A stretch of DNA of 53,139 nt from a virus: IMG/VR virus record IMGVR_UViG_3300027779_000039, positions 1-53,139 of that record. One strand, given 5' to 3'. Below the pieces are notes generated by a model that saw only the letters and a list, made by a program, of their open reading frames with translations, did not search any database and had not been told where the DNA came from. Both the position numbers and the translations under genes were made by a program. This document shows, one piece after another, positions 21,215-27,470 of the stretch. The first letter of the stretch is position 1; the number at the start of each line of letters is the position of its first letter.

Positions 21215-21661
21215 TTACTCATGTAGCCTATACTTCATATCACTAAGTGACTCACCTAGCTCTATATCTACATCATTTCTTTCATGTTCATACAATCTAT
21301 CTGCTACTCTATATAAATCTACAGATGTACCTATAGATTTAATGTTATTAGCTTTAGAACTTATGATTTCTACATTACTATTTACATATCCTTTATCTGG
21401 AACTATTCTATCCAAGGTAGGAGACTCTTTAGTAATGCCTTTCTTCTTATTATTCCAATCTAATTTAATCTCAGTGAAGTAAGGACACCTCTCTTTAACC
21501 AAAGGTATCAGTTCTTCCCATACAAGAGTACATGGTACTCCCTTCTTTAACGCCCTAGCCCTTGCCCTACGCACCATAGACTTTAGTTTGTAAGCTACAG
21601 GGTCTTCACGCAACTGTCGTTTCCTATAATCACGCATATATTGTACATTTCTTTTAACCAT
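21215..21661 (-). CDS. HNH-type nuclease-like protein, first gene of the minus arm
   Basis: A 148-residue protein with the conserved end of a phage HNH family: LDRIVPDKGYVNSNVEIISS followed by KANNIK (about 91-115), and an upstream CPYFTEIKLDW that corresponds to the metal or His region. The N-terminal 45 residues are Arg-rich (YMRDYRKRQL, RRARARALKKG). The ATG at 21661 is only seven bases from the -10 box of a strong promoter, so it would be nearly leaderless; the ATG at codon 9 (21637) is an alternative start. Likely a free-standing endonuclease. Confidence 0.65.
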   Translation of the reverse strand: MVKRNVQYMRDYRKRQLREDPVAYKLKSMVRRARARALKKGVPCTLVWEELIPLVKERCPYFTEIKLDWNNKKKGITKESPTLDRIVPDKGYVNSNVEIISSKANNIKSIGTSVDLYRVADRLYEHERNDVDIELGESLSDMKYRLHE

Positions 21662-21696: not shown

Positions 21697-22132
21697 ACTA
21701 AGTAACTATGTATTCCTTAAATATATCTACATGTAGTATGCCAAACTAGGTAACACCCCCTAATTTATAATTTTATGCAGCATCCGTATACACTATACCC
21801 CCCGCAGGGCGGTGGTCATACATACCCCGTAGATAAGCGTTTAAACTCAGTGGGTACTGTGTGGCAAAAATGCAACAAAATGATAGTATAATGATAGTTT
21901 TTAGAACGGTTCTAAACTAGGTAGTGTAACATTTTAGCAACTGTGTGTATAATGCAACACTATTTGCGGGGGAATGGGAAATAATAAAAATTATTAATAT
22001 ATTATAAGGGTTTAAACGGTCATACTATTTTAAATCAATTTTAAGAGCCATACAGGACAATTTCTTTAAATGGCTACCCACCTATTCAGAAATCTTAAAT
22101 CAAATTTGTTCTACTTTTGTTCTGATGAAGTT
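21697..22132. promoter_or_regulatory. Divergent control region, first copy of a duplicated regulatory block
   Basis: No reading frame is visible between 21662 and 22263. In order the region holds GTTTAAAC at 21839 and 22010, a pair of TGATAGT repeats 11 bases apart (21881-21898), the palindrome TTAGAACGGTTCTAA (21901-21915), a CGGTCATA element (22017-22024) and the block AAATCTTAAATCAAATTTG with two TTTTGTTCT/TTGTTCT repeats (22090-22123). The same blocks recur in the same order at 24.24-24.87 kb. It separates the two transcription arms and probably carries the main early switch. Confidence 0.65.
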
Positions 22133-22208
22133 TGTTACATTCTGTTACATTATTTTACTAACTTTTTTTAATTATTTTCTTGACCGTTTAAACTTAAAAT
22201 GCTCTAAT
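22133..22208 (+). promoter_or_regulatory. Early promoter with tandem TGTTACA boxes and GTTTAAAC in the spacer
   Basis: Two TGTTACA heptamers start at 22133 and 22143, ten bases apart. The -35 TTGACC is at 22180-22185, 31 bases past the second box. The -10 TCTAAT is at 22203-22208 with a 17-base spacer and an extended TGC before it. GTTTAAAC occupies the first eight bases of the spacer (22186-22193). The same boxes at the same distance precede a -35 at 24842. Boxes are candidate activator sites, and GTTTAAAC inside the spacer would allow a bound protein to block RNA polymerase; both roles are inferred. Confidence 0.65.
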
Positions 22209-22263: not shown

Positions 22264-22623
22264 ATGACTAAATATAACTTAAAAAAAGAAACAGTCTTAA
22301 ACCCAAGTAAAATAAGACTATTAATACATACAGAAAGCCAATTAAAAAATGAACATGTTGGCGGGTGGATAGATGAAATTAAATTCATAAGCCATGAGGA
22401 CAATATATACTCAACTTCTAAAGTGTTCTTAACATATATTAAACCTATAAAAGTAAACGGGGATATGATTGGAAACATTAAATACGATTATGAAATTTCT
22501 CCAAATATGGATAGTGAAAGGGTTAGCTATCCAACTTTTGACGAAGGACACTTCACCTTAATAGAAGAAAAACATACTTTCCATGAAAAGGAAATTGAAG
22601 AACTAAACAACGATAATAAATAA
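22264..22623 (+). CDS. First plus-arm protein, unknown function
   Basis: A 119-residue protein starting behind AGAGAG. It is rich in Lys, Glu and Ile and has an acidic C-terminus (HTFHEKEIEELNNDNK). No cysteine pairs, membrane segment or known domain was recognised. As the first gene after the main early promoter it is a candidate host-takeover or regulatory protein. It is followed by a hairpin whose loop carries the GTTTAAAC element. Confidence 0.6.
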   Translation: MTKYNLKKETVLNPSKIRLLIHTESQLKNEHVGGWIDEIKFISHEDNIYSTSKVFLTYIKPIKVNGDMIGNIKYDYEISPNMDSERVSYPTFDEGHFTLIEEKHTFHEKEIEELNNDNK

Positions 22624-22632
22624 TTATTAATC

Positions 22633-22656
22633 GGGGAGGGTTTAAACGCTCTCCCC
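22633..22656 (+). other. Hairpin with TTTAAACG loop after the first early gene
   Basis: GGGGAGGG (22633-22640) pairs with CTCTCCCC (22649-22656) in eight pairs including one G-U, closing an eight-base loop TTTAAACG. It starts nine bases past the stop codon. No U-run follows, so it may stabilise the 3' end or present the loop rather than terminate. The next hairpin at 23364 has exactly the same loop. Confidence 0.55.
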
Positions 22657-22677
22657 ATCAACCACGAGGTAAATACA

Positions 22678-23349
22678 ATGAAAACAACTATTAAAACATA
22701 TGAAACATTAGGCGGTAAATTTGACGCTGTAATCAATGGCAATGAATACCAAATATTTAAGGGAAGTCGTGAAGAATACGGAACAAAAGGCTATAATGAA
22801 TTTCTAGTTCCTTACTTTAAAGAAAAAACGGGCTATGAATTACCGCCTGTTTTTGTATCAATGACTAGTAAATATAGAGAAAACGCTAAAGCATTGGCAG
22901 ACTGTACCACGTATTCAGATAGAATAGAAATATCTTTTAATGCTCATAAAGTTAAAGGTGAGACTGTAGAAGATACCCTTAGATTTTGGGATATTATGGT
23001 ACATGAGGGAATACATGCTTGCGGAATTGGTGGACATAAAAAAGATTTTGCAGACATAGGAAAAAAACTAGGCTTAACGGGTAGCGGTGAAAATAATAAT
23101 ACTTGGACAGCTACAATCTCAACCCCTCAATTAGATGAAACAATATTAAAAACTATTGTAAATAAATTAGGGCTATATCCTCAACATGAATTCAAACAGC
23201 ATTCAAAGAAAAAAGAAGCCGTAAGAAATATTAAAATAGAATGCTCTAATGATTGTGGATATTCTCACCGCTCAAGTATGAAAAATTTTAACATGCTAAC
23301 TAATACCACGTGCGGTGCATGTGGCGAGGGTGAACTAATAACCGCTTAA
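22678..23349 (+). CDS. SprT-like zinc metalloprotease with C-terminal zinc ribbon
   Basis: A 223-residue protein. The active-site motif HEGIH (109-113) with a third His at 120 (GGHKKDF) matches SprT-like proteases, where two His and Glu of HExxH and a downstream His bind zinc. The C-terminal Cys pairs (189, 193, 212 and 215) form the usual zinc ribbon of this family. Residues 55-90 hold the conserved beta region (PPVFVSM, DRIEISFN). In cells SPRTN-type enzymes cut DNA-bound proteins; a phage version expressed early could clear host proteins from DNA. The substrate is unknown. Confidence 0.75.
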   Translation: MKTTIKTYETLGGKFDAVINGNEYQIFKGSREEYGTKGYNEFLVPYFKEKTGYELPPVFVSMTSKYRENAKALADCTTYSDRIEISFNAHKVKGETVEDTLRFWDIMVHEGIHACGIGGHKKDFADIGKKLGLTGSGENNNTWTATISTPQLDETILKTIVNKLGLYPQHEFKQHSKKKEAVRNIKIECSNDCGYSHRSSMKNFNMLTNTTCGACGEGELITA

Positions 23350-23363
23350 ATTAAATCAACAAG

Positions 23364-23385
23364 GGGGTAGTTTAAACGCTACCCC
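23364..23385 (+). terminator. Hairpin with TTTAAACG loop after the SprT-like gene
   Basis: A perfect seven-base stem GGGGTAG (23364-23370) / CTACCCC (23379-23385) closes the eight-base loop TTTAAACG, identical in size and sequence to the loop at 22641-22648. It is followed by TATTTTA, so weak termination is possible. It begins about 15 bases past the stop codon. Confidence 0.6.
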
Positions 23386-23409
23386 TATTTTAAAATAAGG
23401 ATTAATACA

Positions 23410-23613
23410 ATGAAAACAATACAATTAAAATATAAAGAAAGTTATGGTAATAAAAGATTTTACCCTGACTGTGACTATTCACAAAACCTTTTACAATTTG
23501 TAAGCTATAATAAAAAATGTTTTACACTTGAGGAGTACCAAGTTCTAAAAGGTTGCCTAGGTTTTGATGTAATAATTAATAATGATATAGAGGAGGGTTT
23601 AAACGGTGAGTAA
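23410..23613 (+). CDS. Small protein of unknown function
   Basis: Sixty-seven residues with three cysteines (CDYS, KKCF and KGCLGF contexts), preceded by AAGGATT. Its last codons (GLNGE) contain the GTTTAAAC element at 23597, and its end overlaps the start of a mini-protein in another frame. No domain recognised. Confidence 0.5.
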   Translation: MKTIQLKYKESYGNKRFYPDCDYSQNLLQFVSYNKKCFTLEEYQVLKGCLGFDVIINNDIEEGLNGE

Positions 23614-23701
23614 CACAACGACAGAAGCAACGACAACACAAAAAATAATTTGTATAATGTCCTTAATCTTTTCAATAATTTATTTTTTATTTTTAAGATA
23701 G
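23606..23701 (+). CDS. 31-residue membrane mini-protein (GTG start)
   Basis: A GTG at 23606 follows GGAGG with exactly the GTTTAAACG element between binding site and start. The peptide has a Thr-rich start (SNTTTEATTTQ) and one membrane helix (IICIMSLIFSIIYFLFL). It overlaps the stop of the previous gene by eight bases. The strong ribosome binding site and a complete helix support it; no function can be assigned. Confidence 0.5.
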   Translation: MSNTTTEATTTQKIICIMSLIFSIIYFLFLR

Positions 23702-23704
23702 GTA

Positions 23705-23733
23705 TTGACAACAACGAATTAAAAAATTAATAT
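23705..23733 (+). promoter_or_regulatory. Sigma70-type promoter
   Basis: TTGACA (23705-23710), a 17-base spacer and TAATAT (23728-23733) precede the gene at 23760, whose AACGAGGTAAATAAA leader is typical of this arm. No TGTTACA boxes accompany it, so it may be constitutive, unlike the promoters at 22180 and 24842. Confidence 0.7.
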
Positions 23734-23759
23734 AAACTAATAACAACGAGGTAAATAAA

Positions 23760-24146
23760 ATGACTAAAATAAAAACAATAAGAGATAATAGCGGTACTGA
23801 TTACGACGGTACTATTGATGAGCCGTTTAGACAACGAAGGGTATTTGAACCGAAAAATAAAATAAGATTTCTTGGGACGACTAAAACATGGCGGGATAAG
23901 ATAAACGGTCAGACGTATTTTTCAACTAACGTTGAAGACATTGAGCGAGATGTTAATTACCTTTTCCCTATTACCAACGGCTATGGTGACCAATCAGAGT
24001 ATAACGTCAAGAGGGCGTTAGAGATTGACGACAGCGAGATAAGATTTATTAAAATTCCTAATTGTAAAAAGTCAGAAGTTAAAGAACACGGACAAGGACA
24101 AAAGGAAAATTACTTTTCCGACTTAGGATATTACTACCAAGATTAA
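23760..24146 (+). CDS. Unknown 128-residue protein with its own promoter and terminator
   Basis: A polar, charged protein without membrane segments; motifs such as DEPFRQRRVFEPKNKIRFLG and DVNYLFPITNGYGDQSEY are visible but belong to no family I recognise. It is the only gene between promoter 23705 and the strong terminator at 24179, so it forms a monocistronic unit directly next to the iteron region. That position would fit a regulator or replication initiator acting at the neighbouring repeats; there is no recognised DNA-binding motif to support this. Confidence 0.6.
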   Translation: MTKIKTIRDNSGTDYDGTIDEPFRQRRVFEPKNKIRFLGTTKTWRDKINGQTYFSTNVEDIERDVNYLFPITNGYGDQSEYNVKRALEIDDSEIRFIKIPNCKKSEVKEHGQGQKENYFSDLGYYYQD

Positions 24147-24178: not shown

Positions 24179-24217
24179 CCCCTCTAGTGTTATGGTTGGC
24201 ACTAGGGGGGTTTTTTT
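24179..24217 (+). terminator. Strong rho-independent terminator
   Basis: CCCCTCTAGTG (24179-24189) pairs with CACTAGGGGGG (24200-24210), 11 pairs with one G-U, followed by seven T. This is the best intrinsic terminator in the window. It insulates the first early unit from the 700-base non-coding region behind it. Confidence 0.9.
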
Positions 24218-24376: not shown

Positions 24377-24469
24377 GTGTTGTATTTATACCACGTTGTA
24401 TTTATGCAACAGAAATTAAGTGTTGTATTTATATCACGTTGTAAATATATCACGTTGTATTTATGCAAC
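24377..24469. repeat. Five-copy iteron array (GTTGTATTTATxYmAC)
   Basis: Copies begin at 24377, 24394, 24420, 24437 and 24453; each is 17-18 bases of the form (GT)GTTGTATTTATACCAC or CGTTGTATTTATGCAAC, the fourth reading GTTGTAAATATATCAC. Adjacent copies share their end base, and a nine-base spacer separates copies two and three. The ends of each copy (GTTG...CAAC or GTG...CAC) are themselves inverted, as in operators bound by dimers. Related TGCAACA sequences occur in the first control region near 21871 and 21937. Confidence 0.75.
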
Positions 24470-24478
24470 ACAGATAGA

Positions 24479-24551
24479 TTAGAATAGTTCTAAAGTATAG
24501 TTGCGAATGATTCTTAGAATAGTTCTAAAGTATAGATTAGAATAATTCTAA
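24479..24551. repeat. Three TTAGAAnnnTTCTAA palindromes
   Basis: Fifteen-base palindromes lie at 24479-24493, 24514-24528 and 24537-24551, each followed by AGTA; a shorter GAATGATTC lies between the first two. The same palindrome with centre CGG is in the first control region at 21901-21915. Spacing of starts is 35 and 23 bases. They look like operators for a dimeric regulator. Confidence 0.65.
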
Positions 24552-24794
24552 AGTAGATAAGCGTTTAAACGTTCTGTTACAATCTGTTACAATAATTTAT
24601 TAAAGTAGTTATTTTAGGGGTTTACAGGTTTTAACGGTCATAGAGCGTCATACAGACGATTTAAGCCTTTTGGCTACGCTAGTATCTAAAAATCCTAAAT
24701 CAAATTTGTTCTCTCTTTGTTCTCTTTTTTCCCTATATACATTATATATATAAAAAAACATTTTTTACTGAGCGTTTAAACGACTGATAAAGTT

Positions 24795-24875
24795 TGTTAC
24801 ATTGTGTTACAATTCTTTACCGAAAATAATTTATTTTTTTGTTGACGGGTTTATTTAAAAATGCAAAAATATAAA
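24795..24875 (+). promoter_or_regulatory. Early promoter with tandem TGTTACA boxes, second copy
   Basis: TGTTACA occurs at 24795 and 24805, ten bases apart. TTGACG at 24842-24847 lies 31 bases past the second box, the same distance as in the promoter at 22180. The spacer TTTAAAAATGC aligns with TTAAAATGC of the first copy; the -10 is poorer (AAAAAT with 17-base spacing, or TATAAA further down). It would drive the small-gene block beginning at 24918. Confidence 0.6.
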
Positions 24876-24917: not shown

Positions 24918-25184
24918 ATGATTAAAATATATGAACATGATAAAAAAGTATTTAATATGAGAAAAGAAATAAACATAAATAAATATAAAGCTGAAGAAGG
25001 CGAGGTAAAAGAGTATCAAGAATTTTTTGTAGAACTTGACGCAAAAGAGATACAGACACTTTGTCAGTTAATAGGTTTAACAATGAACAAAGGAATAGAG
25101 TTGGAAAACTTATACAAAAAATTATCAGACTTTAATAATCATACTAATCAAGAAGATTGTAGGCTTGAGTTATACACAGGCTAA
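24918..25184 (+). CDS. Small helical protein, unknown
   Basis: Eighty-eight residues from the ATG at 24918 behind AGAGGTAAAAATAAA; an upstream in-frame start lacks a binding site. Mostly helical and charged, with FFVELDAKEIQTLCQLIGLT in the middle. It is the first of a run of small genes, and its stop is followed three bases later by GTTTAAACGAGGAG. No family recognised. Confidence 0.55.
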   Translation: MIKIYEHDKKVFNMRKEININKYKAEEGEVKEYQEFFVELDAKEIQTLCQLIGLTMNKGIELENLYKKLSDFNNHTNQEDCRLELYTG

Positions 25185-25210
25185 CTGTTTAAACGAGGAG
25201 GAGAAATAAA

Positions 25211-25465
25211 ATGTTTATAATAAATCAAACTATGGGTAAAACAATCTCATATAGAAATTGGGGAATAACAACCACAATTCGTAAAGGTAAAAAATACTGG
25301 ATAATTGTGGAGGATTGTTTCGGTCAGTATGAAGAATATTGGCAATTAATTGACACATTAAAACAAGCTAAAAATTTAATAGATTTTTATGAAGAAAAAA
25401 AGAAACTTAATGCTGATGGTTATGAAGAAGAGGAAGTTTTAGAGTTAGACTGGTTGGTGGAATAA
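25211..25465 (+). CDS. Small protein of unknown function
   Basis: Eighty-four residues, start behind a triple GAGGAGGAG site that directly follows a GTTTAAAC element. The protein alternates strands in the first half (GITTTIRKGKKYWIIVED) and an acidic helix in the second (FYEEKKKLNADGYEEEEV), ending in LELDWLVE. A similar acidic ending (IEVDWFEE) occurs in the protein at 26308, which may hint at a shared interaction tail. Confidence 0.55.
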   Translation: MFIINQTMGKTISYRNWGITTTIRKGKKYWIIVEDCFGQYEEYWQLIDTLKQAKNLIDFYEEKKKLNADGYEEEEVLELDWLVE

Positions 25466-25466
25466 A

Positions 25467-25892
25467 ATGTTAAAATCTAAAAAATTAAAATTTAAAAAAT
25501 TACCATATGAAGCAAGTTATAAAACTTTGTTAAAAAGATTTCCTGAAATTAATATTGACCAAGATGATGATTTGGGTGATGAAACTTTTCACAAAGCCAT
25601 GAATGGTGCAAAGCCTTATTGGGTTGATATAAATGGACATTTTTATGAAAGATACGGTTTGTGTTGGGATAATGATTGTCCTGTGGCAGGATATTCACAT
25701 ATTGTATGGGGTAGTGATAATAGAGATAGTCATGTCCAAATTTGTGCAAAGTTTATATATTTAATTACAGAACATTTTAAAGATTGTCATTTTATTACAC
25801 CAAGAGACATTGTTGATTGGGGTGTAGCCCATAAGCCTATAAGTGATGAAGAAAGATATTGGACAGATTATTACGAAAATATTGGAAAGTAG
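25467..25892 (+). CDS. Unknown 141-residue protein
   Basis: Begins one base after the previous stop. It has paired aromatic and Cys/His residues in the centre (YERYGLCWDNDCPVAGYSHI) and a later HFKDCHFITPRDIVDWGVAH, a composition that could bind a metal, but no known domain was recognised. The stop codon TAG forms part of the following GTTTAAAC element (25892-25899). Confidence 0.55.
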   Translation: MLKSKKLKFKKLPYEASYKTLLKRFPEINIDQDDDLGDETFHKAMNGAKPYWVDINGHFYERYGLCWDNDCPVAGYSHIVWGSDNRDSHVQICAKFIYLITEHFKDCHFITPRDIVDWGVAHKPISDEERYWTDYYENIGK

Positions 25893-25915
25893 TTTAAACA
25901 ACGAGGAGAAATAAA

Positions 25916-26284
25916 ATGAAAAGTTTAATAGAAACAATACTACAAACAGCAGTAGATAAGGGCTATGAGTATGCTCTAATAGAGCCATACGACAGAACAA
26001 CAGAACTTAAAAGAACTAATGATGTATCGTTAGGTTTTGCAAATGCAAAAAATAAATGTCAAGGCATACATAATTATGACGAGATTATTATAGAGTTTTG
26101 GCACAAGGAAGAACACATGGGCAATCTTTATTGGACTAATGGGAACGATGACGCAGAACAAGTTTCTGATTACCATTGTAGATTAGATGACGAAGATAAT
26201 TTAGGTCTTGACACTATAATAAAACAATGGGAAAAAGACTTATTAAAAATAACACAACCCAATAATTCTGAAGCATGGAACTAA
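25916..26284 (+). CDS. Unknown 122-residue acidic protein
   Basis: Starts behind CAACGAGGAGAAATAAA after a GTTTAAAC element. Acidic overall, with the segment IEFWHKEEHMGNLYWTNGND and a C-terminal helix LDTIIKQWEKDLLKI. No cysteine pair apart from two single Cys. No family recognised; belongs to the early small-gene block. Confidence 0.55.
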   Translation: MKSLIETILQTAVDKGYEYALIEPYDRTTELKRTNDVSLGFANAKNKCQGIHNYDEIIIEFWHKEEHMGNLYWTNGNDDAEQVSDYHCRLDDEDNLGLDTIIKQWEKDLLKITQPNNSEAWN

Positions 26285-26307
26285 GGGTTTAAACGAGGAA
26301 AAGAATA

Positions 26308-26559
26308 ATGAGAAAGGCTAAATTTATAGAACTACAATATACAACACACGCTAGTTTAGACTTAGGGGAGGAGGGTATAAACCCTGATGACATTAAATCT
26401 ACATTCTTTAAGTGGGGTATGGCAGACATAGAACTTAAAGACGGGACTAAGCACACTATACATCTTAATCACCATGAGGTAGACTGTAAGTACCACGAGA
26501 AGGGGGGTGTCTATGATGATGATTACGAAAAAATTGAAGTGGATTGGTTTGAAGAGTAA
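26308..26559 (+). CDS. Unknown 83-residue protein
   Basis: Starts behind GAGGAAAAG after a GTTTAAAC element. It contains a GMADIELKDGTKHTIHLNHH strand pair with several His, and ends in the acidic IEVDWFEE that resembles the end of the protein at 25211. No known domain. Its stop is again followed within three bases by GTTTAAACGAGGAG. Confidence 0.5.
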   Translation: MRKAKFIELQYTTHASLDLGEEGINPDDIKSTFFKWGMADIELKDGTKHTIHLNHHEVDCKYHEKGGVYDDDYEKIEVDWFEE

Positions 26560-26582
26560 GAGTTTAAACGAGGAGAAGGATA

Positions 26583-26732
26583 ATGGATAAAGAGTGGCAG
26601 ACATTTATAGAAGAAGTCTATGAGATAGCTTTTGGAGACAACGCCTTTAACAGAGGATTTGATTCAGAAGAAGTCGTAACTAAACTAAAAGAATTTTCAG
26701 ACAACGCACACAAATGGGAGGAGAACGTTTAA
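26583..26732 (+). CDS. Small acidic helical protein (49 residues)
   Basis: Reading frame MDKEWQTFIEEVYEIAF onward, 49 residues, behind CGAGGAGAAGGATA. The composition is acidic with amphipathic helices and three Trp/Phe clusters. The stop TAA lies inside the GTTTAAAC element at 26727-26734. Binding site, spacing and position inside the regularly built block support it. Function unknown; small acidic phage proteins often act as DNA mimics or inhibitors, which is only a possibility here. Confidence 0.6.
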   Translation: MDKEWQTFIEEVYEIAFGDNAFNRGFDSEEVVTKLKEFSDNAHKWEENV

Positions 26733-26749
26733 ACGATATGAGTAAAGTA

Positions 26750-26802
26750 TGTTACATGGTGTTACAAAACTTTACTTGCATTATACTAATACTAATATAA
26801 AG
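26750..26802 (+). promoter_or_regulatory. TGTTACA pair with adjacent promoter candidate
   Basis: TGTTACA starts at 26750 and 26760, again ten bases apart. Immediately after it come TTTACT or TTGCAT -35 candidates and several TATACT/TAATAT -10 candidates up to 26798. The boxes are closer to the core promoter than in the other two copies, so they might act as an operator or a class II activator site. It precedes the winged-helix gene at 26827. Confidence 0.5.
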
Positions 26803-26826
26803 TCAAATTAACAACGGAGAAATAAA

Positions 26827-27156
26827 ATGAATATATTTAAAAAACTATTTAGTAAGGAAGCAGACTTTAGTGGAGAAGGTTATTCTGAGCCTAGAGATAA
26901 GTATAGACTAGGTAGACAAGCAGTTAAGGTCTATAACTATATGCACAACAACGGGTGGAAGAGTTTAAACGCCATAGCTAAAGCTACTGGAGAACCTTCA
27001 CCATCTATATCAGCACAGCTTAGAAACTTTAGAAAGCCTAGCTTTCAACCTGTAGACGCTATCTATGAAGTAGAGAAGAGATATGTACCTAAAGGGGTAT
27101 GGGAATATAAGTTGATAGTAGTGCCTAATAAAACTATGTTTAAGAAGGTTATATAA
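26827..27156 (+). CDS. Winged-helix DNA-binding protein, candidate regulator
   Basis: A 109-residue protein. Residues about 25-75 look like a winged helix: LGRQAVKVYNYMHNNGWKSL as helix 1, NAIAKATGEPSPSISAQLRN as helix-turn-recognition helix, and a beta wing ending in YVPKGVWEYKLIVV. It has its own box-bearing promoter region, and its recognition region even contains a GTTTAAAC (26963-26970, encoding SLN). It is the clearest sequence-specific DNA binder in the plus arm and so the first candidate for binding GTTTAAAC, TGTTACA or the palindromes; this link is inference. Confidence 0.65.
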   Translation: MNIFKKLFSKEADFSGEGYSEPRDKYRLGRQAVKVYNYMHNNGWKSLNAIAKATGEPSPSISAQLRNFRKPSFQPVDAIYEVEKRYVPKGVWEYKLIVVPNKTMFKKVI

Positions 27157-27470
27157 GGAGTTAGGAAAGAATTAATTTGGTTGGGAAAGGCGGTGAGAGT
27201 CCGTGGTGTAACCCTTAAACAAAGGAGAAAACCCATTAAAAGTATTCCCCAAGAGATTACCTATCAATGCCAAGTTATAAAAAATTATAGTACCCATTGT
27301 CTTAGATACATTATTTCGTTAAGTTGAGGGACATTGTCTTCAATGCAGAGAGGATACAGAGGCTGAGGTTGAGACTCGTATAATGGTGGGCTAAGTTAGT
27401 AGTTAAAACAGTTGCATGCCTAGACTACAAGCTATAAAATAAATAACGTTTAAACGCATAGGAGAATAAA
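27157..27470 (+). ncRNA. Non-coding stretch, possible structured RNA
   Basis: About 314 bases without a convincing reading frame, in an arm where genes are otherwise packed. It is richer in G than its surroundings. Visible elements are CGG-TGAGAGT-CCG (hairpin at 27191-27203), the flanking TTGGGAAAGG, a short ATTG-tctt-CAAT hairpin, GAGTC (27197) complementary to GACTC (near 27383), and AGGATAC near 27351. The GGGAA...GGTGAGAGTCC...AGGATAC order faintly recalls cobalamin riboswitches, but the essential CCCGC-ACTGT part is missing. The last part (27448-27470) is a GTTTAAAC plus ribosome binding site. Confidence 0.45.

Follow-up and report, generated by a model that had tools for sequence, protein, structure and literature searches.

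The described sites closest to the element reported here are the OmpR box of enterobacteria, with the published consensus GTTACAnnnnGTTACA (PMC7315122), the RpaB site HLR1, which reads (G/T)TTACA(T/A)(T/A)NN(G/T)TTACA(T/A)(T/A) (PMC11633204), and the RstA box, TACATNTNGTTACA (PMC4117788). RpaB represses from HLR1 near transcript starts, and activation from HLR1 sites upstream of the promoter has also been described (PMC11633204). Control of phage genes by host response regulators is documented mainly for the PhoB boxes of cyanophages.

Analysis of a 53-kb virus record (the whole stretch of DNA, here called the window) revealed four exact TGTTACA-N3-TGTTACA pairs at 22133, 24575, 24795 and 26750, all on the + strand and with a unit period of 10 bp, so that a recount of coordinates and strand bears out the four pairs and ten-base period given in a preliminary description of this DNA. 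All four match the OmpR consensus exactly, while HLR1 is fully matched at 22133, 24575 and 24795 and with one mismatch (TG for WW) at 26750. Two other candidates fitted poorly, with the RstA box showing one or two mismatches at each of the four sites and the CenR site TGA-N8-TGA being absent from the box pairs. No exact pair arose in 300 first-order Markov shuffles of the window, as against the four real ones, and pairs with at most 3 mismatches number 23 against 11 expected; these shuffles, together with the reversed-pattern scan given below, rule out a chance origin.

Judged by its genes, the window is an HMO-2011-type phage, with a DNA polymerase 39-42% identical and a ribonucleotide reductase (RNR) up to 67% identical to those of HMO-2011-type phages of SAR116, Roseobacter and Pelagibacter, and with gene order and replication genes in common with them. 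Its G+C content is 35.0%, and the HMO-type subgroup X, whose hosts are untested, spans 34.4-39.0% (PMC9038755). Comparison of the window DNA with known phages found no DNA similarity, and an Rfam search of the window gave no match. The first leftward gene (21215-21661) is endonuclease VII/HNH-like by PHROGs. The box pairs lie among the following features of the rightward arm.

22123 to 22159, + strand: box array 1, made of a weak TGATGAA, TGTTACA at 22133, TGTTACA at 22143 and TTTTACT at 22153, with a 10-bp period.
22160 to 22179, + strand: extra A/T-rich segment between array 1 and the -35, where the relative L005 lacks 21 bp in the alignment.
22180 to 22208, + strand: promoter 1, TTGACC (22180-22185), a 17-bp spacer and TCTAAT (22203-22208), with TGC before the -10.
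22264 to 24146, + strand: first early transcription unit, ORFs of 119, 223, 67 and 128 aa.
24179 to 24217, + strand: intrinsic terminator ending the first unit, a 14-pair stem and a T run.
24575 to 24601, + strand: box array 2, TGTTACA twice and a weak third unit, ATTTATT.
24785 to 24821, + strand: box array 3, made of TGATAAA, TGTTACA at 24795, TGTTACA at 24805 and CTTTACC at 24815.
24842 to 24870, + strand: promoter 3, TTGACG (24842-24847), a 17-bp spacer and AAAAAT (24865-24870), with TGC before the -10, 30 bp past the pair.
24918 to 26736, + strand: second early block, small ORFs without assigned function, from an 88-aa ORF (24918-25184) on.
26740 to 26776, + strand: box array 4, made of GAGTAAA, TGTTACA at 26750, TGTTACA at 26760 and CTTTACT at 26770.
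26771 to 26804, + strand: promoter 4, adjoining array 4, with either TTGCAT (26776-26781, the 9-bp register) or TTTACT (26771-26776, 16-bp spacer) before TAATAT.
26827 to 27156, + strand: gene for a 109-aa winged-helix protein, directly 3' of array 4 (model pLDDT 73), a candidate for an alternative regulator.

Each pair is thus part of a longer array. A third unit, nTTTAC[TC], follows in 10-bp register 3' of the pair at 22133, 24795 and 26750 (TTTAT at 24575), and a weak unit lies 5' of it at three sites (22123, 24785 and 26740). These flanking units had been missed by the preliminary description, as had the promoter abutting array 4, where there is no -35 at 31 bp. Array 3 heads the second early block and array 4 a further gene set, while the four ORFs of the first unit gained no function from Pfam or PHROG. 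Downstream of array 2 a TTTACA (24621-24626) lacks a good -10, and this array, 220 bp upstream of array 3, is possibly an auxiliary or decayed copy. The core of array 1, CTGATGAAGTTTGTTACATTCTGTTACATTATTTTA, is identical in a 91% relative (L005/L011), and array 4 from 26750 on is identical in L015. The 31 bases reported between the boxes at 22133 and 24795 and their -35 hexamers are right when counted from box end to hexamer start (30 intervening bases), as are the 30 from 24575 to TTTACA (29 intervening). The surroundings of 22133 and of 24795 go back to duplication of a single region and have since diverged (direct repeats D2 and D10), so their equal 31-bp spacing counts once and not as two independent observations.

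The same part of the window holds other repeats. The commonest 8-mer, GTTTAAAC, occurs 38 times (1.6 expected), with about 35 of the 38 copies within 21839-42176; it clusters in the rightward arm, where it often lies after a stop codon and ahead of the following Shine-Dalgarno, and there are copies inside the promoter 1 spacer and a short way upstream of each of arrays 2, 3 and 4 (24563, 24774 and 26727). L015 has 23 copies and the regions read of cultured HMO phages have none. Palindromes of the TTAGAATAGTTCTAA type stand three in tandem at 24479-24551 and once near 21903, and GTTGTATTTATGCAAC repeats fill 24379-24475, a possible operator or origin region. Beyond the 109-aa gene, a 314-bp gap (27157-27470) holds a G-rich segment, gttgggaaaggcggtgagagtccgtggtgtaaccc, and neither a + strand ORF of at least 50 aa nor an Rfam match.

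Scanning viral contigs for pairs that continue into TTTAC returned 12 stretches, and the reversed pattern returned none. Most of these contigs belong to the clade of the window, with a helicase identity of 93% in L015, identities of 80-82% in L010, L014 and L009, and identities mostly above 82% in L011 and L012. A matrix built from the relatives' sites scored 15 sites, spread over eight phage contig sets, at 35-46 bits and nothing between 17 and 35 bits, such that only near-perfect copies exist and no degenerate ones, and the relatives' sites all face early genes. Conservation in relatives, on which the preliminary description had made its activator site depend, is therefore confirmed by 15 near-perfect sites at early genes. 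Cultured phages differ, as the pair is absent, even with up to 2 mismatches, from the early regions read of HTVC033P, HMO-2011, CRP-212 and CRP-1, and no exact pair occurs in the regions read of the more distant Venkman and HTVC115P or in a Manatee Spring podovirus, which are cultured relatives of other motif-bearing phages.

Spacing to the -35 separates the sister phages from the window. In the sisters a -35-like hexamer starts 9 bp past the pair (N=9), in promoters such as TGGACA-17-TATAGT, TGGACT-17-TATAAA and TGTAAA-17-TATAAA. The 91%-identical relative of site 22133 likewise has N=9, against N=30 in the window, because it lacks 21 bp present there, and its counterpart of promoter 1 reads TTCACG-17-TCCTAT. 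The extra 21 bp at 22133 and 24795 amount to two helical turns.

Evaluating spacing across viral contigs, we looked for pairs with a TTGAC 9 to 39 bp further on, with the reversed hexamer GTCAA as control and all figures taken from the matches listed. Among these, 45 of 79 de-duplicated sites have N=9, 19 or 20 (binomial p 2e-25), N=9 being the commonest class in other phages, and the spacings are periodic at 10 bp (Rayleigh p about 2e-12), while the GTCAA control gave a flat distribution (p 0.68). Sites at the preferred spacings, again among the matches listed, have a -10 matching in at least 5 of 6 positions in 62% of cases versus 5% when shuffled. Single-link grouping by any shared frame was uninformative, and we regrouped the contigs so that fewer than two ORFs at 40% identity are common between groups; the motif-bearing contigs listed then fall into about 18 phage groups, six of them with at least 4 members, a rough grouping, given the shortness of many contigs. 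Some of these contigs are related to a Methylophilales phage, others distantly to pelagiphages and cyanophages. The element is thus a real, conserved, phase-locked promoter element, and it has the features of an OmpR/PhoB-family site, namely direct repeats of 10-11 bp that share a helix face and keep a set phase to the -35, with N peaking at 9 and 19-20 (30 in the window).

We next consider which protein might read it. Among cyanobacterial genomes, with the centre genome left out, there were 17 exact pairs against 3 controls, an excess that is expected from HLR1. Alphaproteobacteria, the hosts of the cultured HMO-type phages, are not known to have RpaB. In marine alphaproteobacteria of the order OCS116, the pair lies ahead of a gene for a conserved surface protein and is followed by TTGAC after 17-31 bp, OmpR/PhoB-type regulators are encoded in 18 of 18 genomes, and TGATAAAGTTTGTTACATT is common to two genomes and window positions 24785-24803. 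These boxes indicate that marine alphaproteobacteria can use such a site. The surface-protein gene (MATINxSSSADIIVPS...) follows the pair in L049, L285, L287, L292 and L293, and in L050 and L294 the pair precedes a lipoprotein-like gene about 2.2 kb away. Tetranucleotide usage did not favour an OCS116-order host for the phage (r 0.52), and a search of OCS116-order genomes for its genes, run without a positive control, found none. Near-perfect boxes with TTGAC occur in 1 of 398 Pseudomonadota genomes, namely the OCS116 centre genome, and the longer pattern showed no excess over control in alphaproteobacteria at large. A general host regulon of near-perfect boxes is rejected on this rarity in Pseudomonadota and on the missing alphaproteobacterial excess. 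Elsewhere among bacteria, Cytophagales L033, L041, L042, L044, L027, L034 and L032 have in common TGTTACAnnnTGTTACAnnnnTTTACnnnnnnTGACAT, four 10-bp units at apparent promoters, which is likely the host regulon of an OmpR-family regulator, and Desulfobacterales/Geobacteraceae L022, L023, L029, L037 and L046 carry another conserved array, in which TGTTACAnnnTGTTACA is followed by TTTAC and next by GAAAAGCATT.

From these sequence comparisons we infer that the element is probably a site at which a host OmpR-family response regulator would activate early sigma-70 promoters. The preliminary description had left the activator as a phage or host protein; the OmpR consensus and the largely complete RpaB/HLR1 match narrow this, and the breadth of phages argues for a host factor. 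Each element would be a composite sigma-70 promoter whose upstream half consists of tandem 10-bp half-sites read by a host-supplied, winged-helix regulator of the OmpR/PhoB family. The two perfect TGTTACA units may anchor a dimer, and the weaker flanking units (TGATRAA 5', nTTTAC 3') could hold further protomers. The regulator, probably phosphorylated, would contact RNA polymerase from one helix face and recruit it to the weak -35/-10 at the head of each early block, sitting directly against the -35 in most relatives and, at 22133 and 24795, two turns further up across an A/T-rich segment. Site 24575, with no convincing -10, speaks against this reading, as do the scarcity of near-perfect boxes in Pseudomonadota, their absence from the cultured relatives in the regions read, and the tetranucleotide usage, which does not point to an OCS116 host.

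Of the alternatives, the one that fares best, although we consider it unlikely, is that a phage-encoded DNA-binding protein (MerR/AlpA-like, CII-like or winged-helix) binds the repeats and drives delayed-early promoters. Lambda CII and BldC-like proteins do bind head-to-tail repeats, a regulator could hide among the early ORFs, most of which are without known function, and the 109-aa winged-helix gene stands right after array 4 in both the window and L015. However, that gene was found only in these two, with a single relative in IMG/VR, and is missing from the motif-bearing sister phages L009, L010 and L014, on which ground we reject it as a dedicated activator. Its model has weak MarR/ArsR-like fold matches, a fold that normally reads palindromes, and with this weak likeness and narrow distribution it is not the common activator. 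No Pfam helix-turn-helix scored above cut-off in the early ORFs scanned, and the arrays precede the genes that open the arm, a position that calls for a host factor. The same box in the same phase, in about 18 groups among the matches listed with little shared gene content, makes a common phage-specific activator unlikely.

A host regulator might instead repress, with the arrays as operators at which it blocks transcription in the way RpaB does at HLR1 near starts (PMC11633204). The third unit does border the -35 at 26750 and in the N=9 promoters, but the arrays lie upstream of the -35 and not over the -10 or start, with N=19 or N=30 the core promoter stays unobstructed, activators need helical phasing in order to make contact, and the -35/-10 elements are weak at several sites, all of which makes repression quite improbable.

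The geometry proposed by the preliminary description was that of a class I activator, whose site stands apart from the -35 on its upstream side at distances that differ by full helical turns. Its activator-type site at early promoters holds, given the orientation, conservation, phase-locking and position at unit heads, but class I is not the general arrangement. Strict class I activation with 31 bases as the functional spacing of the system is very improbable, even though two window sites combine N=30 with -35/-10 pairs and N=30 recurs in two other phages among the matches listed, since both window sites derive from a single duplicated region and N is 9 in the sister phages, probably 9 at 26750, and mainly 9, 19 or 20 in other phages among the matches listed. 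N=9 is the geometry of a PhoB/OmpR-like or class II contact, to which the 31-base spacing adds 21 bp, and "class I" applies to two sites at most. Equally hard to credit is that the repeats are iterons or plasmid-type sites of a replication/partition region with incidental promoters, because, although 21.7-24.9 kb is rich in repeats (TTAGAATAGTTCTAA, GTTGTATTTATGCAAC and GTTTAAAC), the arrays are always oriented with the downstream gene at a fixed phase to the -35, many phages carry a single such site, and array 4 is set among early genes outside the repeat-rich region.

If the element is an OmpR-family site, reliance on a host two-component system would be a broader strategy, with the early genes of many uncultured phages dependent on it. 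Such promoters could then be located by a simple sequence rule, the box would hint at hosts for phages that metagenomes alone have revealed, and the sister phages offer a natural 21-bp spacing experiment. Somewhat more speculatively, and with the balance tipping slightly against it, many unrelated freshwater and sea phages may have arrived convergently at a single super-consensus box that links their promoters to OmpR/RpaB-type host signalling, such that the envelope, osmotic or light state of the host would gate the lytic start and spacing would evolve by whole helical turns.

Compared with known systems, the element has the 10-bp head-to-tail half-sites upstream of sigma-70 promoters of the enterobacterial OmpR box (PMC7315122), but here they occur in an uncultured marine phage as near-perfect sites with extra units. 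Tandem TACA at 10-bp spacing and the same protein family are features of the RstA box (PMC4117788). HLR1 and RpaB are cyanobacterial, whereas the cultured relatives of the window phage infect alphaproteobacteria. Among HMO-2011-type phages (PMC9038755), cultured members have neither the boxes nor the GTTTAAAC repeats in the regions examined, whereas the window has both. The nearest known kind is the PhoB-controlled promoters of cyanophages S-PM2d and P-SSM2 (PMC10976474), in which phage genes come under a host regulator of the OmpR/PhoB family; there a different box serves stress-responsive and metabolic genes, whereas here the box heads early blocks and recurs across numerous phage lineages.
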